From NCBI GenBank assembly GCA_019634915.1, contig JAHCAN010000003.1:62001-126000 (forward strand): a DNA stretch of 64,000 nucleotides, read 5' to 3'. Position 1 is the first letter of the stretch. Each line of letters opens with the position of its first letter. Both the position numbers and the translations under genes were made by a program. The stretch comes from Steroidobacteraceae bacterium (GTDB lineage: Bacteria > Pseudomonadota > Gammaproteobacteria > Steroidobacterales > Steroidobacteraceae). The notes beneath the pieces were generated by a model, which worked only from the letters and a program-made list of their open reading frames with translations, did no database searches and had not been told where the DNA came from. Below, piece after piece: positions 2,947-46,304 of this stretch.

Positions 2947-4251
2947 ATGAGAACGCTTCCAGTTGTCATCGCGGCACTCGCCGCGGGCACGTTCGTGCAT
3001 GCCGCCACGCCCGACGACGCGACGATCGCGGCGCTCGTCGAGAAGGAAACGCCGCGGGTCGTCACCTGGCGCCGCGATTTCCACCAGCACCCCGAGCTGT
3101 CGAATCGCGAGGTGCGCACGTCGGGCATCGTCGCCAGGCACCTGCGCAGTCTCGGGCTCGAAGTCGAGACCGGGATCGCGAAGACCGGCGTCGTCGCGGT
3201 GCTCGAAGGCGGCCGGCCGGGACCGACGATCGCGCTGCGTGCCGACATGGATGCGCTGCCGGTGGTCGAGCAGACGAACGTCCCGTTCCGCTCGACGGTC
3301 ACGGCCACTTACCGCGGCGAGACGGTCGGCGTGATGCACGCCTGCGGCCACGATGCGCACACCGCGATCCTGATGGGCGTCGCGGAAATCCTCAGCGGGA
3401 TGCGCGCCGAATTGCCGGGTCGCGTCGTGTTCCTGTTCCAGCCGGCCGAGGAAGGCGCGCCCGAAGGCGAAGAGGGCGGCGCGTCGCTGATGCTGAAGGA
3501 AGGCGTGTTCCGGAAACACGAGCCCGAGGCGGTGTTCGGCCTGCACGTGCATTCACTGCTGCCGACCGGCCTGATCGGCTATCGCGCCGGCGCCTTCATG
3601 GCCGGCTCCGACAGCTTCCGTCTCACGGTCACGGGCCGGCAGACGCACGGCGCCCGGCCGTGGATGGGCGTCGATCCGGTGGTCGTGTCCGCGCAGATCG
3701 TGTCGGCGCTGCAGACCGTCGTCAGCCGCCAGATCGACCTGACCGAGAATCCGGCGATCGTCAGCGTCGCGGTGATCCGCGGCGGCGTGCGGCACAACAT
3801 CCTGCCCGATTCGGTCGAGATGCTCGGCACGATCCGCACGTTCAGCGACGCGCAGCGCAGCGACGTGCTCGCGCGTGTCGAGCGCACCGCGAGCCGCATC
3901 GCCGAGGCGAGCGGCGCGAGCGCGAGCTTCGAGCTGTTCGGCATGCCGAACCCGGTGACCTACAACGATCCCGATCTCACCGGCCGCGCGTTGCCGACAC
4001 TCGAGCGCGTGGTCGGCGCCGGGCATCTCGTGCCGCTGACGCGCCAGACCCCGTCGGAGGACTTCTCGTTTTTCGCGCGCGAAGTGCCGAGCCTCTTCTT
4101 CATCGTCGGCGTGGCACCGCCCGGCGCGAAGCCGGAGGACATTGCCGAGAACCACTCGCCGCGGTTCTACGTCGACGAGGATGCGCTGCCGGTCGGCGTG
4201 CGCGCACTCACGCAGCTGTCGGTCGACTACCTCACAGGGAAGATGCGATAG
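2947..4251 (+). CDS. M20-family amidohydrolase, exported
   Basis: 434 residues with an N-terminal signal peptide ([19 protein letters not shown], then mature ATPDD). The M20D signatures are all present: [18 protein letters not shown], the dinuclear-metal motif [23 protein letters not shown], and the dimerisation/active-site HGARPW. Members remove the acyl or aryl group from amino acid conjugates (hippurate, indole-acetyl or N-acetyl amino acids). The signal peptide puts it in the periplasm, which fits scavenging of external conjugates. The start at 2947 is chosen because it gives the signal peptide; the frame is open to 2854 but without coding character. Its 3' end overlaps the convergent molybdenum-enzyme gene by 20 bp. 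Confidence 0.9.
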
Positions 4252-32713: not shown

Positions 32714-34018
32714 TCAGCGCGGCGGCTGGCGCGGTCCCGGCGCGTCGCGCGTCAACCGGTGGATCAGCAGCGCTGCGCGCTGGGCCATCGGCGTCAGCGT
32801 ATCGAGCCCTGTGTATTCGCCCGGCGCGTGGGAATTGTCGCCGCCGCCGCTGCCGAGACCGTCGAGACCCGGAAGCAGATGTGCGATGAAGCCGATGTCG
32901 CCTGCGCCGCGCCTGCCGGGATCGAGCGCCGCGACCGGTCCGAGGCCGAGGTCACGGCTCGCGCCGTCGAGCACCTTCAGCAGCGCCTCGTTGCCCGGCG
33001 TCGGCGTCATCGGCGGGTAGGCGCCTTCATCGAAGCGCAGCGTCGCCCCGGTGCGCGGCAGGTGCCGTGCCACGATCGCCTGCATGCGCGCCATCGCGCT
33101 GCGCTCCTGCTCGAGGCTGATGTAGCGCAGGTCGCCGCGCGCGATCGCGACCGGCGCGATCACATTGGTCTTGCCCTCGGCCGTGCCGCGGTAGTCGTCG
33201 AGTTCCGCCTGCGTGCCGCCGACGATCACGCTCGGGTTCAGGGTCAGGTATTTCTCGGCGCCGAGCTCGGCCTGGAAGGCCGCGAGGATGCGTGCCGCCT
33301 CGTAGACCGCGCCGCTGCCGCTGCCTGCGCCGAAAATGCCGCTCGAGTGCCCCGTCTCGCCGGTCGTCTCGAGCGTCCAGCTGCTGAAACCGCGGCGGCC
33401 GATGGTCGCGGTGCCGTCGACCGACGTCTCGAAGCTGAGCGCCGCATCGCTCTGCCCGGCGAGCTCGAGCATCGTCGCGCGCGACACGGCGAACGGCAGG
33501 CCGGCATCCTCCTCGTCGCCGGTGAGCATGACGGTGATGCGGCGGTCCGCGAGCGCGCCGGCGGCGTGCAGCGCTTTCAGGGCCTGCAGCATCACGACGA
33601 TGCCGCCCTTCATGTCGCTCGTGCCGGTGCCGTAGGCACGATCGCCTTCGCGGCGAAACCGCTCGCCGGCGAGCACTGTGTCGAGATGGCCCAGCAGCAA
33701 CAGGCGCTGGCCGCGCGTGCCGTCGATCGTGGCGACGAGGTGCCCGGCGCGCTTCATGTCGGCAGGCAACTCGACCCAGCGCGTGTGAAAGCCGATGGCC
33801 CGCAATTCTTCGGCAAAGACCTCGCCGACGGCGCGTACGCCGGCGAGGTTCTCGGTGGGGCTTTCGATGTCGACGGCGCGGGCGAGCAGCGCCTCGGCGG
33901 CCGGCTGGCCTGCGGCGACCTGCTGCGCGATTGCGCTTTCGGTCGGATCGAGCGCGGCTCGCGCGACAGCGACACCGCCGATGAGCGCAATGACGGTGCC
34001 TGCGATGAAACGGAACAT
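32714..34018 (-). CDS. M20-family metallopeptidase, exported (glutamate carboxypeptidase-like)
   Basis: 434 residues with a signal peptide (MFRFIAGTVIALIGGVAVARA). All metal-site motifs are intact: LLLGHLDTV, GTSDMKGGIVVMLQAL, MLTGDEEDAG, and TTGETGHSSGIFG with the dimer-domain His. The closest named activity is carboxypeptidase G2-type removal of C-terminal glutamate or related amino acids, but specificity is open. Located in the periplasm by its signal peptide. A TTG 12 bases upstream is a weaker start. It seems to be a single-gene unit, convergent with lysR. Confidence 0.9.
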   Translation of the reverse strand: MFRFIAGTVIALIGGVAVARAALDPTESAIAQQVAAGQPAAEALLARAVDIESPTENLAGVRAVGEVFAEELRAIGFHTRWVELPADMKRAGHLVATIDGTRGQRLLLLGHLDTVLAGERFRREGDRAYGTGTSDMKGGIVVMLQALKALHAAGALADRRITVMLTGDEEDAGLPFAVSRATMLELAGQSDAALSFETSVDGTATIGRRGFSSWTLETTGETGHSSGIFGAGSGSGAVYEAARILAAFQAELGAEKYLTLNPSVIVGGTQAELDDYRGTAEGKTNVIAPVAIARGDLRYISLEQERSAMARMQAIVARHLPRTGATLRFDEGAYPPMTPTPGNEALLKVLDGASRDLGLGPVAALDPGRRGAGDIGFIAHLLPGLDGLGSGGGDNSHAPGEYTGLDTLTPMAQRAALLIHRLTRDAPGPRQPPR

Positions 34019-35716: not shown

Positions 35717-36912
35717 ACAAAGTCGTCACGGTCAATCTGAACGGCAATGCCTACCAGGTCGAGGAAGTGGCCTACCAGGCGCTGCAGGGCTATCTCGACC
35801 AGGCGCGCGCGAAGCTCGCCGGCAACGTCGATTGCGCCGAGATCATGACGGATCTCGAGCAGGCGATAGCCGACAAGTGCGACACCTTCCTCGGCGCAAA
35901 CCACAATGTCGTGTCGGCCGCGGAGATGTCGCAGATTCTGCAGGAGATGGGCCCGGTCGAGGCGTCGCCCGAGCCGTCCGCTGCCGATCCCGCCGCCGAG
36001 GCGACCCAGGGCGGACCGGCGCCGGCCGCGCCGACGCGGCGCCTGTACCGGCTGCCCGACCAGGGCGTGTGCGGCGGCGTCTGCGCCGGCTTCGCCGCCT
36101 ATTTCAACGTCGATGTGGTCTGGGTACGCCTGATCTTCGTCGCGCTGGTCTTCTTCACCGGCGTCTGGTTCGCGATCTGGCTGGTCATGCTGTTCGTGAT
36201 GCCGCGCGCGACGACGCCGGAGGAAGTCGCGCTGGCGTACGGCGCGCCCTTCAACGCGCAGGATGTCATCAACCGCGCAAAAAAAAAGTATGAGGAATAC
36301 GGCAGCGCCGCCGCCGATTTCGGGCGCCGGCAATGGGCCCGTCACGAACCCGCGGTGAAGACCGCCGCCTCGAAGCTCAATCAGGTGGTCGACGACGTGA
36401 CTGCAAAGCTGCGCGACGGCCGGGCGCGCGATGGGCGCGCGGGCAGCATGCACCGTGCGGCCCGCCGCCGCAGAGCGGCGGCCCGTGCGCGCGCGGCGCA
36501 GCGGCCGGGCACCTCGGGCGGTGCCCAGGTGCTCGCCGGCATCGCGCTGCCGGTGCTGTCGATCGCCTCGGCCGCGCTGTTCGTCGCGCTGCTCGCAGCG
36601 CTACTGCTGCTGACCGACGATCGCTCGGTCGTCGGCTGGGTGCCGCAGATGCTGGGACCGGTCTGGCTCCTGCCGGTGCTGCTGCTGGTCGCGTACCTGA
36701 TCGTCGCGCTGCCGCTCGGTGCCGCGCGCAGCGCGTCGCGCCGTTACGCCAACGGCGGCAGGCACTTCGGATGGGCAAGCATCGTCGATGGACTGCTGTG
36801 GCTCGCGGTGGCGGCCGCGCTCGGCTGGGGTGCCTACGAATTCGTGCCGGGCGTGCAGTCGGCGATGATGCAGCTGTGCGCTGCGTCAGGCGGCCTGCTG
36901 GCGATGATCTAG
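35713..36912 (+). CDS. PspC-domain membrane protein
   Basis: 399 residues. N-terminal about 90 residues (MNKVVTVNLNGNAYQVEEVA, QAIADKCDTFL) match the cytoplasmic region common in PadR-linked PspC proteins. The PspC domain is at about 107-175: RRLYRLPDQGVCGGVCAGFA, FNVDVVWVRLIFVALVF and a second hydrophobic run. Lys/Arg-rich cytoplasmic stretches follow, then three to four membrane segments from about 270. PspC proteins sense membrane damage. A run of nine A at 36279-36287 lies at codons 189-192 and may cause slippage. Translationally coupled to padR. Ends in a 4-base overlap with the convergent peptidase gene. Confidence 0.9.
   Translation: MNKVVTVNLNGNAYQVEEVAYQALQGYLDQARAKLAGNVDCAEIMTDLEQAIADKCDTFLGANHNVVSAAEMSQILQEMGPVEASPEPSAADPAAEATQGGPAPAAPTRRLYRLPDQGVCGGVCAGFAAYFNVDVVWVRLIFVALVFFTGVWFAIWLVMLFVMPRATTPEEVALAYGAPFNAQDVINRAKKKYEEYGSAAADFGRRQWARHEPAVKTAASKLNQVVDDVTAKLRDGRARDGRAGSMHRAARRRRAAARARAAQRPGTSGGAQVLAGIALPVLSIASAALFVALLAALLLLTDDRSVVGWVPQMLGPVWLLPVLLLVAYLIVALPLGAARSASRRYANGGRHFGWASIVDGLLWLAVAAALGWGAYEFVPGVQSAMMQLCAASGGLLAMI
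36279..36287 (+). other. A9 run, candidate -1 slippage site in the PspC gene
   Basis: The frame reads GCA-AAA-AAA-AAG, containing the A-AAA-AAG slippery heptamer known from E. coli dnaX. A -1 slip here adds one Val codon and meets TGA at 36291-36293. No clear upstream Shine-Dalgarno stimulator was seen. Confidence 0.45.
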
Positions 36913-38180
36913 CCCGAGGCCCCGGCCACCGTGGCGGCGAGCAATACGATGTGCCGCGCCGTGTTCATCATGGCGGGCACGCTGGCCCACTCCCCGGCGG
37001 AACCGCGCTCACCGCCGCGTTCTCCGTGCAAGGCGATAGCCAGGCTGCCGCCTTCGATGGCTACGCGCATGTTGCAACATCCGCGGGCGTTGAATTCCGG
37101 CTCGTAGCCGAGGTGCTGCGACACGCCGCGGGCCGTCCGGGCGAGAGGCGAAGTCATCGCCCCGGCAATCTCCCCACCCATGGACTGGAAATCGGGAACC
37201 ATCTCCAGCCGGACGCCGGTCCGCGCTTCGACGCGAGCCAGCAGTGCCGCGATCTTCTGCGCGATCTCCTCGACCGCGGCTCGATCCTCTGAGCGCACAT
37301 CCAGGGAAAACCATCCGGTGCCTGGCCGGCGATTGAACGCCTCACCGCTGCGCAGGATGCCCACGTTGATGAAGGTCTCGTCGCTACGGGTCCGCTCCCG
37401 CTGCGCGAGAGCAAAGACCTCGTCCACGGCTTGCGCGATGGCATGGTTGACATTCGGCAGCGTCTGATCTGCCGTATGGCCTTCCTGCCCATGCGCGACG
37501 ATTCGCCACCAGGCCACCGCGCCGGCGCCGTTGTAATCGATCTGACGCCCATCCCCGAGCACCTCGACGAACGCAAGTGCACGGTCCTCGAGTTGCTCAT
37601 ACAACGCCTTCATGCCCTGCAGGCCGGTCTCCTCGCGAGCAACGGCGGCGAAAATCACGTCATGTCGCAAGCGCACGCCGGACGCCGCAAGCGCCTCGGC
37701 CGCCACCAGCATGGCAGCCACGGTCGATTGGATCTCGGTCGCCGGGCCAATGATGCGGTCGCCATCCCGTTGCGCGCGGACGCCCGAGCGCTGGAGGCTT
37801 TCGATCGCCGGCAGGTCGTCCAGCATCGTGACAAACACGAGCGCGCTGCCGGAGGTTCCGCGAAGGGCGCCAACGACATTTGGCGTACCGTCCAACCGCA
37901 CATCGACCAGGCCGATCTCGCGCATGCGGGCGGCCACTGCGGCCGCCCTATCGAACTCCCGGCCAGAGGGCGAGATGATGGATGCCAGCTCAATCAGCGT
38001 GGATGTCGCCCGGTCCTCCGCCGCATCCACTGCCTTCATCGCCTGCTGTACCTGCGTGTTGGCCAGGGCCACGTCGAGCGTCTGCGGCGCGACCGGTTGC
38101 GCGGCGATGGACGGCAGCGCGGCGATGCAGAGCATCGCAGCCAGGGTCGGAATGAGGGCTCGGCCGGGTCGCTTCTTCAT
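36909..38180 (-). CDS. Exported M20-like hydrolase with altered metal ligands
   Basis: 423 residues with a signal peptide (LIPTLAAMLCIAALPSIAAQ). The M20 fold is recognisable: VDAAEDRATSTLIELASI, AAVAREETGLQGM with the catalytic Glu pair, and the dimer-domain VAHGQEGHTAD. However the first zinc site reads VTMLDDLP, with Met119 where the family has His (HxD), the bridging Asp region reads GPATEIQST, and the last His is not obvious in RGSAGEWASV. So it may use another metal geometry or may bind rather than cleave. Its start overlaps the tetR stop (ATGA), so regulator and enzyme are made together; this suggests a role in generating or removing the TetR ligand or its precursor. Confidence 0.75.
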   Translation of the reverse strand: MKKRPGRALIPTLAAMLCIAALPSIAAQPVAPQTLDVALANTQVQQAMKAVDAAEDRATSTLIELASIISPSGREFDRAAAVAARMREIGLVDVRLDGTPNVVGALRGTSGSALVFVTMLDDLPAIESLQRSGVRAQRDGDRIIGPATEIQSTVAAMLVAAEALAASGVRLRHDVIFAAVAREETGLQGMKALYEQLEDRALAFVEVLGDGRQIDYNGAGAVAWWRIVAHGQEGHTADQTLPNVNHAIAQAVDEVFALAQRERTRSDETFINVGILRSGEAFNRRPGTGWFSLDVRSEDRAAVEEIAQKIAALLARVEARTGVRLEMVPDFQSMGGEIAGAMTSPLARTARGVSQHLGYEPEFNARGCCNMRVAIEGGSLAIALHGERGGERGSAGEWASVPAMMNTARHIVLLAATVAGASG

Positions 38181-39019
38181 GCGCGAGGCCCTCGTGCGAG
38201 AGCCCGGGTCCTGCCGGTCGTGCGAGTGCGCCCCGTGTCACGAGGCGCCACGTGGCCTGCGTTGTCCACACTCATGCCCAACCAGGTCACCAGCTCCTTC
38301 GCTGCCCGCGGCAGATTGGAAGGGGCCGGCATTCCGGGATGCAGGACATGCAGAAAAATGATGCTCGCGGCATCCGCCACCGTATCGTCGTCCGCATCGA
38401 GCTGCTTCAGCAGGGCATGAAAGCCGGAATCCGGATACACGATCAGCTTGCGTACGAGCTCATCCATCATGCTGCCCAGCATGTAGGCGACGAACAGTGC
38501 GGGGCCGTTGTCCGGCGCGATTCCGCGCCGCAACGAACTGCTCCTGGCAATCCGCTCGTACCACGTCTGGTTGCCCTTGCGGACCAGCTCGGCGAGGCGT
38601 GGATCTTCGTCACCGAGCTGCAGAACGCAGCGCATCAGCCCCGCATTGGCCCGGCAAACGGCGATCCACCGGCGGTTTGCCGCACGAATGGCATCGAACT
38701 GTGTGCGACCTCCGGCATCTGACCGGGGCCGCGCTTCCAGATCCAGGAACTCCTCGAGCAGCTCGCTGAGCACGGTGAGTGCTGCATCGGTCTTGTCGCG
38801 GAAGTAGACGTAGAACGAGCCCTCCGCGAGTCGCGCCCGGGCCGAGATGTCGGCAACGCGCATCGCGTGGTAGCCGTCACGCGCCAGGATTCTTGCGGTG
38901 GCGATCTTGAGACGTTGCCTGGTGCGCAGCCCTTTCTGCTTCGGCGGCGCGGTTCTCAACTGCCTCTCGAGATGCTCGATGAAGGAAAGCAGAGCGGGCG
39001 AGGTCTGCTGCTGATCCAT
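38177..39019 (-). CDS. TetR-family transcriptional regulator
   Basis: 280 residues, longer than the usual 190-220. HTH at about 30-75: RTRQRLKIATARILARDGY, MRVADISARARLAEGSFYVYF. Residues 80-235 form the helical ligand domain. An Arg/Thr-rich tail of about 45 residues follows and is atypical. It starts 35 bases from the palindrome at 39055-39074 and probably represses itself, the M20-like gene coupled to it, the divergent maoC gene and, through a second copy at 39637-39656, the receptor-hydrolase-transporter-ligase run. Confidence 0.9.
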   Translation of the reverse strand: MDQQQTSPALLSFIEHLERQLRTAPPKQKGLRTRQRLKIATARILARDGYHAMRVADISARARLAEGSFYVYFRDKTDAALTVLSELLEEFLDLEARPRSDAGGRTQFDAIRAANRRWIAVCRANAGLMRCVLQLGDEDPRLAELVRKGNQTWYERIARSSSLRRGIAPDNGPALFVAYMLGSMMDELVRKLIVYPDSGFHALLKQLDADDDTVADAASIIFLHVLHPGMPAPSNLPRAAKELVTWLGMSVDNAGHVAPRDTGRTRTTGRTRALARGPRA

Positions 39020-39054
39020 GGCGGCACTTTAGCCGGGTGATTGACAGGAAGCAA

Positions 39055-39074
39055 AAATGAGATCAACCTCATTT
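39055..39074. promoter_or_regulatory. Predicted TetR operator O1 (tetR-maoC gap)
   Basis: Perfect palindrome AAATGAG-N6-CTCATTT in the divergent gap. The spacer is ATCAAC. The ATG at 39057 that would extend maoC lies inside it and is unlikely to be a start. Confidence 0.75.
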
Positions 39075-39098
39075 ATAAGACCGGACCAGGGAGCTGCC

Positions 39099-39602
39099 GT
39101 GCCCAACTCGAAGATTCAGGCGATGTTCGAACAGATGCCGCTGGGCGAGCTGGTGGGCACTTCGCGCTGGATCACGGTCGATCAGTCGATGATCGATGCA
39201 TTCGGCCGCGCCACGCTGGATCCCGATCCGATGCACGTCGATCCGGAATGGGCAGCCGCGCATGGCCCGTTCGGCGGCACGATCGCCTTCGGGTTCCTGA
39301 CGATCTCGTTGCTGACCCACATGTTGCACGATGCACTGGGAGCGACGCCGAACCGCGATGCCTACGATAGCGGGTATTACCTCAACTACGGCTTCGACCG
39401 GCTGCGCCTGGTGTCACCGGTGCACAGCGGCCGGCGCGTGCGCGGTGTGTTTCGCCTGGCCGGGCGCGAGATCGACGAGCGGCAACGCTACGTCTCGAGG
39501 TTCGACTGCACCATCGAGATCGAGGGAGAAAAGAGACCTGCGCTGGTCGCCACTTGGCTCACCGTCTGGGTGCCGCCGGTGAAATCCGGCGCCGCCGCGT
39601 GA
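39099..39602 (+). CDS. MaoC-family (R)-specific enoyl-CoA hydratase-like protein
   Basis: 167 residues from a GTG with a GGGAG site six bases before it. Hot-dog fold with the hydratase motif: Asp41 and His46 in ATLDPDPMHVDPEWA, then GPFGGTIAFGFLTISLLTHM, the two catalytic residues and the overhang helix. It hydrates enoyl-CoA thioesters. Being the first gene right of the operator, and 72 bases before the receptor gene, it is likely part of the TetR regulon and acts after the CoA ligase encoded at the other end. Starting at the ATG in the operator would add 14 non-conserved residues. Confidence 0.88.
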   Translation: MPNSKIQAMFEQMPLGELVGTSRWITVDQSMIDAFGRATLDPDPMHVDPEWAAAHGPFGGTIAFGFLTISLLTHMLHDALGATPNRDAYDSGYYLNYGFDRLRLVSPVHSGRRVRGVFRLAGREIDERQRYVSRFDCTIEIEGEKRPALVATWLTVWVPPVKSGAAA

Positions 39603-39636
39603 GCGCCGGTGTGCCCCGGCGGTCGCATTTCCAAAA

Positions 39637-39656
39637 ATATGAGTTTGATCTCATTT
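39637..39656. promoter_or_regulatory. Predicted TetR operator O2 (before the receptor gene)
   Basis: ATATGAG-N6-CTCATTT, 19 bases upstream of the receptor start. Read on the other strand, AAATGAGATCAAACTCATAT, it matches O1 (AAATGAGATCAACCTCATTT) at 18 of 20 positions. Confidence 0.75.
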
Positions 39657-39674
39657 TTATTACAGGAGGAGACC

Positions 39675-41867
39675 ATGCCGGGAAGCGCATTGCGATGGGC
39701 TGTCGCACTGGTTCTTGCAACCGCAGGCGGGACGCTTGCGTACGCCCAGTCCACGGACTCCATGGGAACAAGCCTCCAGCTCGAGGAAATCGTCGTGACG
39801 GCGCGCAAGGTCGAAGAGAACATTCTCGAGACCCCGGTGTCGATCACCGCGTTCAACGCGGCTGCGATCGACAAGCTTGGCATGATCACGATCACCGATA
39901 TCGCGCTGCGCACGCCGGGGCTGAACTACGGAAACTTCGGCGACGCGAAGCTCTCGCCGACATCGTTGCGCGGCGTCGTCTCGAGCGCAGGTTCCGCCGG
40001 GCAGGACCCGGCGGTCGGCGTCTACGTCGACGACGTATTCATCGGGCAGGGTGCGGGCGCACCGCTGGATCTCTATGACATCGAACGCGTCGAGGTATTG
40101 CGCGGGCCGCAGGGCACGCTTTACGGCCGCAGCACGATCGGTGGCGTCATCAGCCTGACGACCCGGCGCCCGAGTGAGACCTTCGAGGGCTCGGCGGAAG
40201 TCACCTACGGCAACTATGACCAGGTGCGCGCGGCAGGCCTGCTCTCCGGCCCGCTGGTGGAAGGGGCCGTGTTCGGCAAGATCTCGGCGGTATATGACGA
40301 CCGGGACGGCACGACCGACAATCTCTGGCTGGACAGGCCGATCAACGACCAGCACCACTGGACGACCCGCGGCCAGTTGCTGTTCACACCCTCCGCCGAT
40401 ACCGAACTGCTGTTCACGGCCGAATATTTCAGGATCGATCAGCATCCGCTCGGCTTCGAGACGCTGCGATACGATGACGATCGGCTGTTGCCGCAGCTGC
40501 TCGATGCATTCGGGCTGCCGCGGAACGAGCGTCCCTACGATCGCAGGATCTATGCCAACCAGCAGTCCACCGAGACGCTCGAAGCATGGAGCGCTTCGGC
40601 CGTACTCGGCACGAAGTTCGGCGCGGCGGACTTCACCAGCATCACGGCCTATCGCACGCACGACTATTTCAGCCGCACGGATACGGATCGGTCTCCGGTC
40701 GACTTCATCTATGACGGCGATCCGGAGGACGTGCAGACCTTCTCGGAAGAAGCGCGACTCAGCTGGACGTCCGGCAATATCGACTGGCTCGTCGGCCTCT
40801 ACTTCTACGATCGTTCGGCCGGAAACAACAGCTTCATCGAAGTTGGTGCCGATCTCGCGTCCGTGTTCGGTGCGCCGGAGATCGCGGGGCTGCGCGTCGG
40901 GTCAGATGCGAATACTGACATCCGCAGCACCGCCGGTTTCGCCAGCGCGACCTGGCGAGTCGACGACAGGCTCGACTTCTCGCTGGGCGGGCGCTACACG
41001 CACGAGCGGCGGTCGATCGACTACGTACAGACGGACCCGCTCGACATCCTGGGCGGGTCGTTTTCGCTGAAGGCGAAGGAATCGTGGTCGCAGTTCACGC
41101 CGAGCGCTTCCGCCCGCTATCGGTTCACGCCGGCCGTGATCGGCTATGCCACCATCAGTGAAGGTTTCAAGAGCGGCGGCTACAACGACGCACTCGGCGA
41201 CGCCAACGGCATTGCATACGGCCCGGAGGGCGTCTGGAACTACGAGCTCGGGCTCAAGAGCGAATTGCTCGATCGCCGCGTCGTCACCAGCGTGGCGTTC
41301 TATTACATGGACTGGACCGACATCCAGATCACAGCCGACAATCCCGCGACGCCGATCTACGATCCGTCGATCCTGAATGCCGGCAGGGCCCATTCGGCCG
41401 GCATGGAATTCGAGCTGAACGTCGCCGCCACCGAAAGATTGACGCTCGGTTTCACGGCGTCCCTGCAGGACGCGAAGTACGACGAGGGCAACATGCCTGA
41501 TGGCGAGCCGCTCGACAGGATTCCGTTCGCTCCGCGCTACACGGGCAGTGTCAACGCCGCATACGTGATTCCGCTCGCAAGCGGCGAGCTGACGCTGGTC
41601 GGCGAAGCGCTGTTGCGCGGCGAATCCTGGCTGACGCCGGACAGCCAGCCCGATGGTCGCGTCGGCGACTATCAGCTGTATAACGCCAGATTGTCCTGGA
41701 AGGCGAGCAGCAAGCGATGGGGAGTCACGCTGTGGGGCAAGAACCTCACTGACGAGACCGTCAAGCAGCGCCTCTTCGATCTCTCCTTCCAGGATCTGGT
41801 CGGTCAGAAGCTCATCGTGCTGAACGACCCGCGGACCTACGGGCTGACCGTACGCTTCGATTTCTGA
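39675..41867 (+). CDS. TonB-dependent outer-membrane receptor of the TetR cassette
   Basis: 730 residues. Starts at an ATG with an AGGAGGA site four bases upstream. Signal peptide (WAVALVLATAGGTLAYAQ), TonB-box-like LEEIVVTARKVEE, plug (TPVSITAFNAAAI, TSLRGVVSSAG, VGVYVDDVFIGQG, IERVEVLRGPQGTLYGRS), barrel ending YGLTVRFDF. It should bring the cassette's substrate across the outer membrane. Operator O2 overlaps its promoter region. Followed 36 bases later by the serine hydrolase gene. Confidence 0.93.
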   Translation: MPGSALRWAVALVLATAGGTLAYAQSTDSMGTSLQLEEIVVTARKVEENILETPVSITAFNAAAIDKLGMITITDIALRTPGLNYGNFGDAKLSPTSLRGVVSSAGSAGQDPAVGVYVDDVFIGQGAGAPLDLYDIERVEVLRGPQGTLYGRSTIGGVISLTTRRPSETFEGSAEVTYGNYDQVRAAGLLSGPLVEGAVFGKISAVYDDRDGTTDNLWLDRPINDQHHWTTRGQLLFTPSADTELLFTAEYFRIDQHPLGFETLRYDDDRLLPQLLDAFGLPRNERPYDRRIYANQQSTETLEAWSASAVLGTKFGAADFTSITAYRTHDYFSRTDTDRSPVDFIYDGDPEDVQTFSEEARLSWTSGNIDWLVGLYFYDRSAGNNSFIEVGADLASVFGAPEIAGLRVGSDANTDIRSTAGFASATWRVDDRLDFSLGGRYTHERRSIDYVQTDPLDILGGSFSLKAKESWSQFTPSASARYRFTPAVIGYATISEGFKSGGYNDALGDANGIAYGPEGVWNYELGLKSELLDRRVVTSVAFYYMDWTDIQITADNPATPIYDPSILNAGRAHSAGMEFELNVAATERLTLGFTASLQDAKYDEGNMPDGEPLDRIPFAPRYTGSVNAAYVIPLASGELTLVGEALLRGESWLTPDSQPDGRVGDYQLYNARLSWKASSKRWGVTLWGKNLTDETVKQRLFDLSFQDLVGQKLIVLNDPRTYGLTVRFDF

Positions 41868-41903
41868 TCCGGCACTTCCGCGGACCCGGGGCAGGGGTAA
41901 AGC

Positions 41904-43268
41904 ATGCACATTGGAACAAGAGCCGTGGCGGCGCTCGCACTCGCGCTGGTACTCGCGAACAACGCTCCGGCCGGAACCGAGCCCCAGGCGCGCGAGTTGG
42001 CGGCCCGGGCAGCCCTGGATGCTCTCGTGACCCGGCTGGCAGACGCCGGCGGCGGTGGTGACACCGACCGGAACGCGCTCGTTCGCGTGGACGGCACACG
42101 CGACGGCTTCGCCCATGCCGCCGCGGCGGGACGCGCTCGCGTCGACGGCGTCGACCGCATGACCGCAGATCGACCGTTCTACGTCGCGAGCATCACGAAA
42201 TCGATGGTGGCCGCCCGGATCCTGCAGCTCGTGGAGGCGCACAGGCTGTCGCTCGATACGACTCTCGGCCAGGCAGGGCTCCTGCCTGCCGATGCACTTG
42301 AGCGTCTGCAGGTCTTCGAGGGGCGCAGCTACGGTGCGGGTATCACGGTCCGTCAACTGCTGTCACACCGCACCGGGCTTCGCGATGTGCTGCTCGATGA
42401 CCGCGAGAGCCTCTCCGGGGAGGTCGAGTCGGGGGTGGCTCCCGGCTCGATCGGCGGGATCTGGTCCAGCCAGATCGGGCGCTACCTGCAGTGCAGACAC
42501 GAGCCCGACATCTGCAATCCCGGTGAAGCCGCCGCGCTGTATCCAGCCCACCGCTGGAAGCCGTTCGATGCGGCCGCCTGGCAACGAGCCCCGGGGGATC
42601 GCGACGCCGGGCTGATCAACTTCTTCCTTGCCGAGATGGGGGATGCGGGCCTGTCTGCGCCGGGTACGGATTTTCACTATGCCGATACGAACTACATCCT
42701 GCTCGGAATGCTCATCGAGAAGCTCACGGGACACAGCCTGCATGCGGAACTGCGCGACAACCTGTTCAAACCGCTGGGCATGGATCACACCTATCTGAGC
42801 TACGCGCCCGACCCGGATGCCCGGCCGCGGGATCTCGCGCCCGCGGACTTCTGGATCGGTGACGTGGCCGTCGTCTCGAACCAGCTCGACCTGTCGTTCG
42901 ACTGGGCCGGCGGCGGCGTCGTGGCGACGGCCGCCGACCTCGACCGCTTCCTGCGGGGAATTGCCTCGGGCCTGATTTTCAAGAACGATGCATCCCGGGC
43001 CGCGATGCTCGATTGCATCGATACGCCCGGGCCACCGGACCAGCGGGGCGGCTACGGGTTCGGTATCCGCTGCCTGGAAACGGAATACGGACCCATGTGG
43101 GGACACTTCGGTGCCTGGGGAGCAGCGATGGTTTATTTCCCGGAGTACGACCTGAGCCTCACCGGCACCGTCGACCGGATGTCCGACAGCGCCGCCATGC
43201 AGGCGCTGGTATTCGATTCGATGCAGGCACTCGAGACTGCCGGCGTGATCAGGCGACAGCGCCACTGA
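41904..43268 (+). CDS. Serine hydrolase of the beta-lactamase class C/esterase family, exported
   Basis: 454 residues with a signal peptide (AVAALALALVLANNAPAG). Nucleophile Ser96 and Lys99 in YVASITKSM give the SxxK motif; the second motif is FHYADTNYILLGMLIEKL (Tyr base), and GHFGAWG near the end takes the KTG-like place. Such proteins are esterases, amidases or D-peptidases more often than true lactamases. In the periplasm it could split the imported conjugate before inner-membrane transport. A 65-residue insert between the first two motifs has a Cys pair (QCRHEPDIC). Same-strand neighbour of the receptor and transporter genes. Confidence 0.88.
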   Translation: MHIGTRAVAALALALVLANNAPAGTEPQARELAARAALDALVTRLADAGGGGDTDRNALVRVDGTRDGFAHAAAAGRARVDGVDRMTADRPFYVASITKSMVAARILQLVEAHRLSLDTTLGQAGLLPADALERLQVFEGRSYGAGITVRQLLSHRTGLRDVLLDDRESLSGEVESGVAPGSIGGIWSSQIGRYLQCRHEPDICNPGEAAALYPAHRWKPFDAAAWQRAPGDRDAGLINFFLAEMGDAGLSAPGTDFHYADTNYILLGMLIEKLTGHSLHAELRDNLFKPLGMDHTYLSYAPDPDARPRDLAPADFWIGDVAVVSNQLDLSFDWAGGGVVATAADLDRFLRGIASGLIFKNDASRAAMLDCIDTPGPPDQRGGYGFGIRCLETEYGPMWGHFGAWGAAMVYFPEYDLSLTGTVDRMSDSAAMQALVFDSMQALETAGVIRRQRH

Positions 43269-43281
43269 GCCGCTGCGCATC

Positions 43282-44673
43282 ATGAGCGCCCGCGCAACGC
43301 CAGCGGACACACCTGCCGTGAATGCGCAAGCGCAGCCCGGGTCCCTGAGCCGCCGGGTCCTGCTGGGCTACAGCTTCGGCTCACTCGGCACGGGGATCTA
43401 CTCCAGCACACCTGGCGTGCTGCTGCTGTACTTCATGACCGACACCCTCGGCATCCCGGCCTCCCTGGCTGCACTCGGCGTCGCGCTGCCGAAACTCTGG
43501 GACATGGTTGCCGACCCGCTGGTGGGCGGGCTCTCCGATCGCACCCGCAGCCGCTGGGGTCGGCGCCGCCCCTGGCTGCTCGCCGGCAGCCTGCTCATGT
43601 TCCTGAGCTACGTCTTCCTGTTCACGGTTCCGGAGTTTGCGGACCCGGGAGCGAGCTTTCTGTACGTCACCGGCATGTTCACGCTGACGGCAACCGCCTA
43701 CGCAATCTTCGCCGTGCCGTATACGGCGATGGCCGCCGAGATGAGCGACTCCAGCCGCGAGCGGGTGCGGATCATGGCGTACCGGATGACACTGATGCTG
43801 CTCGGCGTGCTCACCGGGTCCGCGCTCGCGCCTCTGCTGGTGGCGGCATTTGGCGGAGGCCGCGCGGGCTATGCTGCCATGTCGGTCATCGTGGGCACGG
43901 CGGCGGCCGGCACGATGCTGCTGTCCTTCCTCGCGACACGCGGTCTCAGGCTGCGCGAACAGCCTGTCGACCATGGCAGCAGATGGTCCGAGCAGCTGGG
44001 TCTGGCGCTGCGCAACCGGAAGTTCCTGCTGCTCGTCAGCGTATACCTCGTGCAGCTGCTCGCGATCGGCACGATGACCGCGGCGACGCCCTACTTCGTC
44101 GTCCACGTGCTTGGGCACGGTGAGGCGCTGATCGGCATGATCTTCTTCGTGCTCATGGGCGTCGGCGTGATCTCGATGGGAGCATGGTCCGCAATCGCGC
44201 GCCGCATCGGCAAGAAGCGGGCCTATGTGGTGGCCACGGTGCTGTACGCCGCGGCCAGCCTCGGGCTGCTCGGGGTCCACTCGACGGACAATGCCTGGTC
44301 GCTGTATCTCCCGCTCACCGCCATGGGCTTTGCCTTCGGTGCGCAGCAGATGTTGCCTTTCGCCATGCTGACCGACGTGATCAATGCGGATGCCGATGCA
44401 CACGGCATGCGACGCGAGGGGCTGTTGTCCGGTCTCTGGGTCGCGAGCGAGAAGGCGGGGCTCGCGCTGGGTCCTCTGCTCGCCGGACTGACGCTGCACT
44501 TCGCCGGCTTCGTCGAGAGCACCGGGCCCACGGTCGTGCAATCGTCCGGGGCGCAGACGGGCATCAGGGTGGCCTACTGTGTGCTTCCGGCGATCGCCAT
44601 GGTGGGCAGCCTGCTGGTGCTGAGGCTGTATCGCCTCGACGAGGGCGAGCAGGAATCAACCGGGCGAGCGTGA
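43282..44673 (+). CDS. MFS transporter, GPH (glycoside-pentoside-hexuronide) cation symporter type
   Basis: 463 residues, twelve membrane segments. GPH-family signatures: YSFGSLGTGIYSS, LWDMVADPLVGGLSDRTRS then RWGRRRPWLL, and the mid-protein repeat. GPH carriers take up sugars, glycosides or sulfoquinovose-like organic anions with H+ or Na+. It lies 13 bases after the hydrolase gene and overlaps the ligase start by one base, so it probably carries the hydrolysed product inward. Confidence 0.9.
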   Translation: MSARATPADTPAVNAQAQPGSLSRRVLLGYSFGSLGTGIYSSTPGVLLLYFMTDTLGIPASLAALGVALPKLWDMVADPLVGGLSDRTRSRWGRRRPWLLAGSLLMFLSYVFLFTVPEFADPGASFLYVTGMFTLTATAYAIFAVPYTAMAAEMSDSSRERVRIMAYRMTLMLLGVLTGSALAPLLVAAFGGGRAGYAAMSVIVGTAAAGTMLLSFLATRGLRLREQPVDHGSRWSEQLGLALRNRKFLLLVSVYLVQLLAIGTMTAATPYFVVHVLGHGEALIGMIFFVLMGVGVISMGAWSAIARRIGKKRAYVVATVLYAAASLGLLGVHSTDNAWSLYLPLTAMGFAFGAQQMLPFAMLTDVINADADAHGMRREGLLSGLWVASEKAGLALGPLLAGLTLHFAGFVESTGPTVVQSSGAQTGIRVAYCVLPAIAMVGSLLVLRLYRLDEGEQESTGRA

Positions 44674-46304
44674 TGAACGGGATCCGGCCGGACAGCATTC
44701 GCATTCCTCCGCAGCTCGCCCGTATCAGCGATTACGTCGACTGGTATGCCGCGCGCCAGCCCGGTGTCGAGGCGATGGTATTGGGGCAGGAGCGCTATGA
44801 CTATGCCCGGCTGCAGGCACGGGTCGATTCGATCGCCCGTGCGCTCATAGCCGCAGGCATCGGGCACGGTGATCGGGTCGCGACCCTGTCCACGCCGCAT
44901 CCCGATTTCTGGGCGATCTTCCTGGCGACGGCATCGATCGGCGCAATCTGGGTCGGGCTCAATCCGCGCTACCAGCTCGATGAGTATCGCTACATCATCG
45001 GCGATTCCGGGCCTGCGTTGCTGTTCGCGCGCACGCGTATCGATGAGCGCGAATTTGCCGGCGATCTGCGTGCATTGATGGCCGAATGCTCCTCGTTGCG
45101 CCGGCTCGTCACGCTCGATGAGGGCCTGCCGGTACCGGCGGCCGAGACGATGCAGCAGTTCCTGCAGCACGGTTCGACGGTCTCCCGCATGACACTCGAT
45201 GCATGCCGAGCGGGCGTCGTCGAGACCGATCCCGCCCTGATCGTGTACACCTCCGGCACCACCGGCCGGCCAAAGGGCGCCCTGCTGCCGCATTGCGGTC
45301 TCACCCAATGCAGTCGCGTCCAGATGCGGTACTGGCGCGCCGATCCCGTCCGGGTCGTCAATTTCCTGCCGATCAATCACATCGGCTGCGTGGGCGATCT
45401 GTCGGCATGGTGTCTGGTTGCCGGCGGCTGCATCGTCTTCATGGAGAAATTCGATGCCGCCGGTTCGATCGGGCTGACGGTGAGCGAGAGATGCACTGTC
45501 TGGGGCGGTGTTCCCACCACGATCCTGATGACACTCTCGCTGCCCGAGTTCGAGCGTCATGATCTGTCGGAGCTGCAGTTGATCATCTGGAGCGGTGCTG
45601 CCGCGCCGGAAGAGCTCGTCCGGCGACTGGGTCGCATCGTCCCCCGTCTTTCCAATTCCTACGGCGCCACCGAAACCGTCGGCTCGGTCACGTTTGTCGA
45701 ACCTACCGACGACGTGGATCTGCTTGCAAACAGCGTGGGCCATCCCGTGCCCGACTACGAGTTCCGCCTCACGGACCGCGACGGGCGCGTAGTCTCCGTG
45801 GGAGAAGCCGGGGAGATCTGCGTGCGCGGCAAGTTCATCATGCGGGGTTACTGGCACCGGCCACGCGAGACGGCCGAGACGATCGATGCCGATGGCTGGC
45901 TGCACACCGGAGACCTTGCCGTGGAGAGACCGGACGGCGCGATCCGTCTGGTCGGGCGGCTCAAGGAAATGTTCAAGTCCGGCGGCTACAACATCTACCC
46001 TCGCGAAATCGAGCATGTCCTGGAAGGCTGCCCCGGGGTAGCGATGGCGGCCGTCGTTCCGGTTCCGGATCCGGTTTTCAGCGAGGTCGGCCATGCCTAC
46101 GTGCTGCGCGAGCCCGGTGCGGCGCTCGATGTCGACACATTGCTCGCCACCTGTCGCGCGCAGCTTGCCAACTACAAGGTGCCCAAACGGCTCGTCATCG
46201 AGGACGAGTTGCCGTTGTTGCCGATAGGCAAGCTCGACAAGGTCCGGTTACGCGAAGCTGCCCGCGACGCACTTTCGTCAGGACCCGGAACTGCGGCGCA
46301 GTAG
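44673..46304 (+). CDS. AMP-forming acyl-CoA ligase of the TetR cassette
   Basis: 543 residues. Motifs of a full ANL enzyme: LIVYTSGTTGRPKGALLPH, SYGATETVGS, DGWLHTGDLAVE, and PIGKLDKVRLRE with the catalytic Lys. It resembles cyclohexanecarboxylate/short-to-medium acid ligases. The start ATG overlaps the transporter stop (TGATG). It would turn the imported acid into a CoA thioester for the MaoC hydratase and host beta-oxidation. Lower GC and less biased codons than the flanking genes were my impression only and were not measured. Confidence 0.92.
   Translation: MNGIRPDSIRIPPQLARISDYVDWYAARQPGVEAMVLGQERYDYARLQARVDSIARALIAAGIGHGDRVATLSTPHPDFWAIFLATASIGAIWVGLNPRYQLDEYRYIIGDSGPALLFARTRIDEREFAGDLRALMAECSSLRRLVTLDEGLPVPAAETMQQFLQHGSTVSRMTLDACRAGVVETDPALIVYTSGTTGRPKGALLPHCGLTQCSRVQMRYWRADPVRVVNFLPINHIGCVGDLSAWCLVAGGCIVFMEKFDAAGSIGLTVSERCTVWGGVPTTILMTLSLPEFERHDLSELQLIIWSGAAAPEELVRRLGRIVPRLSNSYGATETVGSVTFVEPTDDVDLLANSVGHPVPDYEFRLTDRDGRVVSVGEAGEICVRGKFIMRGYWHRPRETAETIDADGWLHTGDLAVERPDGAIRLVGRLKEMFKSGGYNIYPREIEHVLEGCPGVAMAAVVPVPDPVFSEVGHAYVLREPGAALDVDTLLATCRAQLANYKVPKRLVIEDELPLLPIGKLDKVRLREAARDALSSGPGTAAQ

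Follow-up and report, generated by a model that had tools for sequence, protein, structure and literature searches.

A TetR-associated gene block in a Steroidobacteraceae bacterium is one version of a modular cassette, possibly for the catabolism of an acylated conjugate

The window analysed here is a stretch of 64,000 nucleotides from a Steroidobacteraceae bacterium (GenBank assembly GCA_019634915.1, contig JAHCAN010000003.1, positions 62,001 to 126,000 of the forward strand), and this work concerns a block of seven adjacent genes in it together with two operator sequences. An M20-like protein, exported as judged by eye from its signal peptide, is encoded on the minus strand (36909-38180; PF07687/PF01546 over cut-off), downstream of the gene of a TetR-family regulator on the same strand (38177-39019; PF00440, the TetR_N DNA-binding domain, 36.4 bits with a cut-off of 24). 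On the plus strand lie the genes of a MaoC-type hydratase with a probable GTG start (39099-39602; PF01575, 62 bits, cut-off 27), a TonB-dependent receptor (39675-41867; PF00593 and PF07715 over cut-off), a serine hydrolase of the S12/beta-lactamase family, whose signal peptide was likewise read by eye (41904-43268; PF00144, 153 bits, cut-off 27), a GPH/MFS_2 inner-membrane carrier (43282-44673; PF13347, 311 bits, cut-off 27) and an AMP-forming acyl-CoA ligase (44673-46304; PF00501 and PF13193 over cut-off). The initial annotation had described the same seven families as one block; all of them are indeed adjacent, but the interval quoted for it, 38177-46304, omits the M20-like gene. The tight packing that it reported was also found: tetR ends and the M20 gene begins within a shared ATGA, the carrier and ligase genes overlap in TGATG, and the remaining same-strand gaps measure 13, 36 and 72 bases. 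The block genes have a G+C content of 63-68% against 69% in the flanks, and a search for a sigma-70-like promoter at the locus found none. The assembly containing the window comprises 2.78 Mb in 58 contigs and is 78.6% complete.

Each of the two promoter gaps contains one operator fitting ATGAG-N6-CTCAT. Operator 1, ATGAGATCAACCTCAT, occupies positions 39057-39072 within the 79 bases that separate tetR from maoC, and its core is kept in five other loci; operator 2, ATGAGTTTGATCTCAT (reverse complement ATGAGATCAAACTCAT, minus strand), occupies positions 39639-39654 within the 72 bases preceding the receptor gene. The pair of matching sites proposed earlier is thus present, and nowhere else in the assembly is ATGAGNTCAANCTCAT matched perfectly. 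With one or two mismatches allowed, six further places appeared, each inside a called gene (the surrounding genes were called with a crude gene caller). Imperfect matches gave 7 rows, above the 2 of a reversed-pattern control; despite this excess the six places were set aside as further TetR sites because they are intragenic. A one-mismatch site of the same genome (C55:47919-47934) falls within the gene of a gamma-glutamyltransferase and shortly precedes that of a flavoprotein, which is 45% identical to the flavoprotein adjoining a related locus in genome G017. This gene pair was examined as a regulon member and not accepted. When the window was shuffled 30 times, the operator core, TGAGNTCAANNTCA, turned up 0.0 times per shuffle; 30 shuffles of each of five positive sources, G701 not among them, gave 0 to 0.07 per source. 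Since the ATG at 39057 is part of operator 1, translation of MaoC most likely begins at the GTG at 39099.

Relatives of the regulator were sought in samples of genomes from the order, class, family and phylum and in plasmids, and proved to be rare (4/147, 8/369, 12/150 and 4/398 genomes respectively, at the limits used). The closest are 58% (G594), 59% (G621), 47% (G017), 47% (G701) and 41% identical, the last on a plasmid of Novosphingobium THN1. All five of these loci, with a TetR at least 41% identical, carry the core TGAGNTCAANNTCA in intergenic DNA, in two copies each in G594, G621 and G017 and in one each in THN1 and G701. In G621 contig C419 bears the operator sites, MaoC and ligase and contig C890 bears TetR, so that in this case they are linked only by belonging to one genome. 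None of the four loci whose TetR is 34-40% identical (G532, G521, G580 and a Bosea plasmid) has the core, and it is likewise missing from 27 control loci amounting to 441,785 bases, a set chosen by us that overlaps in part and includes those four. Among the 80 loci collected, 13 match the core; 12 are operator-bearing loci or overlapping copies of them, and the other, L059, is an intragenic match brought in by the pattern search itself. The recognition-helix region, read by eye, divides the loci in the same way as the presence or absence of the operator, being L/V-A/S-EG-S/L-FY in the window, G594, G621, G017 and THN1 and altered in G521, G532 and G580. The operator is conserved together with the regulator, in other genomes and on an alphaproteobacterial plasmid, which adds weight to the earlier suggestion that both transcripts are tied to TetR through these sites. 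The block is very probably regulated as one unit, and the regulator would bind both operators and act as a repressor rather than an activator.

Different palindromes adjoin two TetR relatives that are found without the window operator, in L045 (between 9493 and 9625) and L046 (between 10062 and 10307); by eye these read CTGATAC-TG-GTATCAG and AAAACT-GATGTT-AGTTTT. More distant relatives (31-35%) in L029 (G505), L090 (G937) and L080 (the Bosea plasmid) adjoin a CoA ligase and a crotonase-type hydratase.

The genes accompanying the regulator were tallied in the nine loci with a TetR at least 34% identical (G594, G621, G017, G701, THN1, G532, G521, G580 and Bosea); loci with a TetR at 28-33% (L020, L021, L029-L031, L048-L050 and L090) and L091 were partly read and excluded. 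In the fetched stretches a CoA ligase is present in 8/9 loci (not G017), at about 11 kb from TetR in G701, and a MaoC or crotonase-type hydratase also in 8/9 (not G701). A TonB receptor occurs in seven of the nine (not G017 or Bosea) and a GPH/MFS_2 carrier in five (G594, G017, THN1, G532 and G580), the one in G580 being a Pfam call that gave no BLAST match with the window carrier. Relatives of MaoC (E<=1e-30) were found in 8/150 family genomes, the own genome included. All five family genomes with a strong TetR (E<1e-30, own genome excluded) have one, against 2/144 of the others (Fisher one-sided, 4e-8, assuming the same family sample for both searches and with related species not being independent).

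In the plasmid searches, TetR matched 2 records, MaoC 223 and the receptor 42, and the best match of each falls in one 28-kb stretch of pTHN from Novosphingobium sp. THN1 (NZ_CP028348.1 248041-276490), a strain described in an excerpt of PMC6167471 as a microcystin degrader. This unannotated locus resembles the window in its TetR (41%), ligase (43%), MaoC (53%), TonB receptor (47%, with the next plasmid match at about 32%) and GPH carrier (34-39%), and a perfect operator stands between its ligase and MaoC genes. It differs in having an S15 hydrolase in place of S12, a carrier spread over two overlapping frames, insertion-type genes in between and no M20 match. The carrier in two frames (L078:20603-21879) may be broken or mis-sequenced. 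Three other matches were dropped: carrier matches in THN1 (L061, the first GPH match) and Novosphingobium RL4 (L062), which came without a MaoC, ligase or TetR match, and a Sinorhizobium MaoC match (L079), which adjoins efflux genes. In two loci with MaoC and ligase, L077 and L083, no hydrolase was seen on their short contigs. In L043 and L074 (G594 and G621) the receptor gene that stands behind one of the operators is followed by an acyl-CoA dehydrogenase and a carboxyltransferase, a hint of a branched or further-degraded acyl chain there.

The recurring part therefore consists of TetR, the hydratase and the CoA ligase, often with the receptor and the carrier. Co-location of the homologues in other genomes, which the initial annotation had called for, was found for these five; the exact set of seven was not, the M20-like protein had no match in the 25 compared loci and the nearest S12 relative lies apart. 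It might be argued that the block is a row of neighbouring genes with separate roles, in which the regulator governs the operator-linked promoters and no joint pathway exists. The families are common ones (the assembly has 39 TonB-receptor matches) and the full set is repeated in none of the 25 loci, as such a view would expect; we nevertheless regard it as very unlikely in view of the two operators and the tight coupling, and because regulator, hydratase, ligase, receptor and carrier recur elsewhere along with the operator.

The residues D41 and H46 of MaoC, which we take to be catalytic, are kept in 9/9 aligned sequences, the window included. The carrier scores 218.5 bits against TIGR00792 (gph), with a cut-off of 231.35, while it is over the cut-off of PF13347. 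The ligase has relatives of 50-58% identity in other loci; among solved proteins a fatty-acyl-CoA synthase and a feruloyl-CoA synthetase match it best, and many other acyl ligases are close to it as well. A structure model of TetR (mean pLDDT 77.9) is nearest to EthR and then to FadR.

The solved proteins nearest to the S12 hydrolase are a D-Ala-D-Ala carboxypeptidase and an alkaline D-peptidase, with carboxylesterases lower in the list. Its sequence has, by eye, SxxK and HxG, and YxD at the place aligned with YxN, presumably an S12 family motif, which is thus not present in its usual form. YxD also occurs in L019, L076 and one L043 protein, and YxN in the other L043 protein and in L044. Its structure model (mean pLDDT 63.5) was left unused. 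As a search anchor the S12 protein was abandoned, its relatives being too few and one match among genome contigs (L016) lying without cassette surroundings; the TetR anchor worked.

The M20-like protein has poly(aspartic acid) hydrolase 7ljh as its best solved relative. In one pairwise alignment, read by eye, no histidine stands opposite either of the two histidines of 7ljh that we assume to be its M20 metal ligands. Hydrolysis by this protein is therefore doubtful, and because it is also not a recurring member of the loci, it may be accessory or inactive. Two further frames with an exported M20-type look (by eye) lie in the window at 2947-4251 and 32714-34018.

The hydrolase varies between the related loci. 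S12 proteins are found in the window and, as judged from BLAST and alignment, in G594 and G621, a fusion of S58 and S12 in G017, and S15 proteins in G521, G532 and THN1; G580 has S12, an Rce1-like protein and an M81-ligase fusion, and G701 has S58, S12 and M81. The G017 fusion (L017:8514-11099) is a single frame of 861 residues joining a DmpA/BapA-type S58 peptidase to an S12/beta-lactamase domain, and it adjoins the TetR relative and the operator. The G580 fusion (L047:3-2669 and L051:6344-8992) is likewise one frame, of 889 residues in the stretch, combining an M81/MlrC-family metallopeptidase with an acyl-CoA ligase and adjoining S12, Rce1-like, MFS_2 and MaoC genes. Ligase relatives of 44-55% identity in loci without this TetR have comparable neighbours: S58, a D-aminoacylase relative and S12 in L082 and L081 (the latter placed by family models only), a D-serine-dehydratase-type enzyme and S12 in L076, and a penicillin acylase in L075. 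The amidohydrolase of L082 matches the solved D-aminoacylase 1rjp at 3e-70, and the S58 protein of this locus matches the beta-peptidyl aminopeptidase 3n2w at 4e-99. S58 proteins number one each in G017 and G637, both in the locus, two in G701 with the strong one in the locus, seven in G594 with one in L082, and, outside the loci read, five in G621 and two in G602; none was found in G521, G532 or G580. Thus, the hydrolase slot is exchangeable, being occupied by S12, S58, S15, penicillin acylase or M81.

Enzymes of D-amino-acid metabolism also recur around these loci. An Asp/Glu/hydantoin racemase is present in G580 and a D-serine-dehydratase-type enzyme in L019, the locus of the nearest S12 relative. 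The cassette-like locus of G701 has relatives of the D-glutamate proteins DgcN and DgcA, at 468.7 bits (cut-off 480) and 338 bits (cut-off 400), both below the curated cut-offs, and the D-aminoacylase relative of L082 belongs with the N-acyl-D-amino-acid deacylases; neither system has a counterpart in the window block.

Taking these data together, we consider on balance that TetR controls the block as a single unit for the catabolism of an acylated conjugate. This conjugate would most likely be an amide or resemble a peptide, with a carboxylic acid as its cap. It would enter across the outer membrane via the TonB receptor and be split in the periplasm by the S12 hydrolase, with the cleavage product crossing the inner membrane via the GPH carrier; the ligase would then form the CoA ester of the freed acid, and MaoC would hydrate an enoyl-CoA stage. 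TetR would act on both operators, one at tetR/maoC and the other before the receptor-hydrolase-carrier-ligase operon, and its repression would probably be lifted by a CoA ester or a related metabolite, as suggested by the likeness to FadR and the neighbouring ligase. The sequence of steps proposed in the initial annotation remains plausible for the receptor, S12, carrier, ligase and MaoC; hydrolysis by the M20-like protein, with no counterpart of the histidine ligands, does not share this plausibility. Its guess of a conjugate of a small or aromatic acid found no specific support as regards the acid, while an amide conjugate agrees with the neighbours in related loci, which point more to amides or peptides with D-amino acids.

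Two other substrates were considered. The same machinery could serve an aromatic or hydroxycinnamic-type acid bound as an ester, with S12 as an esterase and a feruloyl- or coumaroyl-type ligase. Feruloyl-CoA synthetase is indeed among the best solved ligase relatives, beside fatty-acyl-CoA synthase, the S15 protein of pTHN is nearest to cocaine esterase, and the S12 family includes esterases; but many other acyl ligases are near the ligase too, and the hydrolases of related loci belong mostly to families of peptidases or amidases and have D-amino-acid enzymes in their vicinity, so that we judge this substrate unlikely. The second is a bile-salt-like steroid conjugate, handled as by the bsd I cluster of Caenibius tardaugens through amide deconjugation, after which the side chain would be activated with CoA and hydrated. 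That cluster emerged from a search of open-licence papers for this gene combination (PMC12882949), and in the available excerpt it has, compared by family only, a TetR, a CoA ligase and a MaoC hydratase together with an amidohydrolase proposed for deconjugation, and D-aminoacylases rise on cholate. According to the same excerpt bsd I differs from the window in that amidohydrolase instead of S12, in a pair of acyl-CoA dehydrogenases, a monooxygenase, a steroid-type ligase and other proposed palindromes. The window block is without an acyl-CoA dehydrogenase, and its ligase reaches 269.1 bits against a cut-off of 750 with the steroid-24-oyl-CoA synthetase model NF052580. Judged from the genes of the block, a steroid conjugate is still less probable than an aromatic ester. 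Amide or D-peptide conjugates are favoured over both, on account of the S58, D-aminoacylase, penicillin acylase, M81, DgcN/DgcA and other D-amino-acid enzymes in related loci and of the closeness of S12 to DD-carboxypeptidase and D-peptidase.

The periplasmic logic of hydrolase and carrier recalls the mlrABCD system for microcystin degradation of Sphingomonadaceae, in which, as excerpted from PMC12474180, MlrB is a periplasmic serine hydrolase and MlrD an MFS inner-membrane carrier; S12 and the GPH/MFS_2 carrier are likened to these by family description only. Neither MlrA (Rce1-like, PF02517) nor MlrC (M81, PF07364/PF07171) has a match among the seven window proteins, and the window block contains a TonB receptor, TetR, MaoC and ligase, unlike mlr. 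In related loci an Rce1-like protein is found in G580 and M81 proteins in G580 and G701. M81 was rejected as proof of a microcystin pathway, since the family is common (475/72,556 plasmid records) and the M81 proteins of the two related loci reach 329 and 262 bits, with a cut-off of 999.

Several observations weigh against the favoured interpretation. The exact seven-gene set recurs in 0/25 loci, a hydratase was not seen in G701 nor a linked ligase in G017, and the best plasmid match of the carrier lies outside the pTHN cassette. Relatives of S12 are few (E<=1e-40 in 2/147 order and 2/150 family genomes, and E<=1e-50 in 1/369 class genomes, the own genome counted in each), none was found in plasmids, and the nearest (43%, L019) is away from TetR, MaoC, ligase and carrier; the M20-like protein, as said, had no BLAST match in the loci compared. 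There is no D-amino-acid enzyme among the seven window genes and no S58 protein in the window's own assembly (G000). The S15 hydrolase of three loci fits esters as well, judging from the pTHN copy, the one case tested. Finally, the loci reached through ligase or MaoC matches are a chosen and biased sample, with no random-locus control for the D-amino-acid genes.

Within these bounds the window is one version of a modular cassette, and not the exact seven-gene pathway first described. More tentatively, the related loci might belong to a horizontally spread family of modular TetR-controlled cassettes in distant Pseudomonadota, scavenging N-acylated peptides that contain D-amino acids (of the non-ribosomal type), in which a recurring CoA-activation core with its operator would be combined with a plug-in, an exported hydrolase on which the substrate depends; in the window this plug-in would be of the S12 D-peptidase type. 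What is known of how bacteria clear lipopeptides, cyanopeptides and other acyl conjugates comes mostly from single pathways such as mlr. The conserved operator and the recurring core of regulator, hydratase and ligase would provide a handle for sequence-based discovery of such pathways, and the exchangeable hydrolases would allow testing which bond each version cuts and whether TetR responds to the CoA ester formed from the acid that is released.

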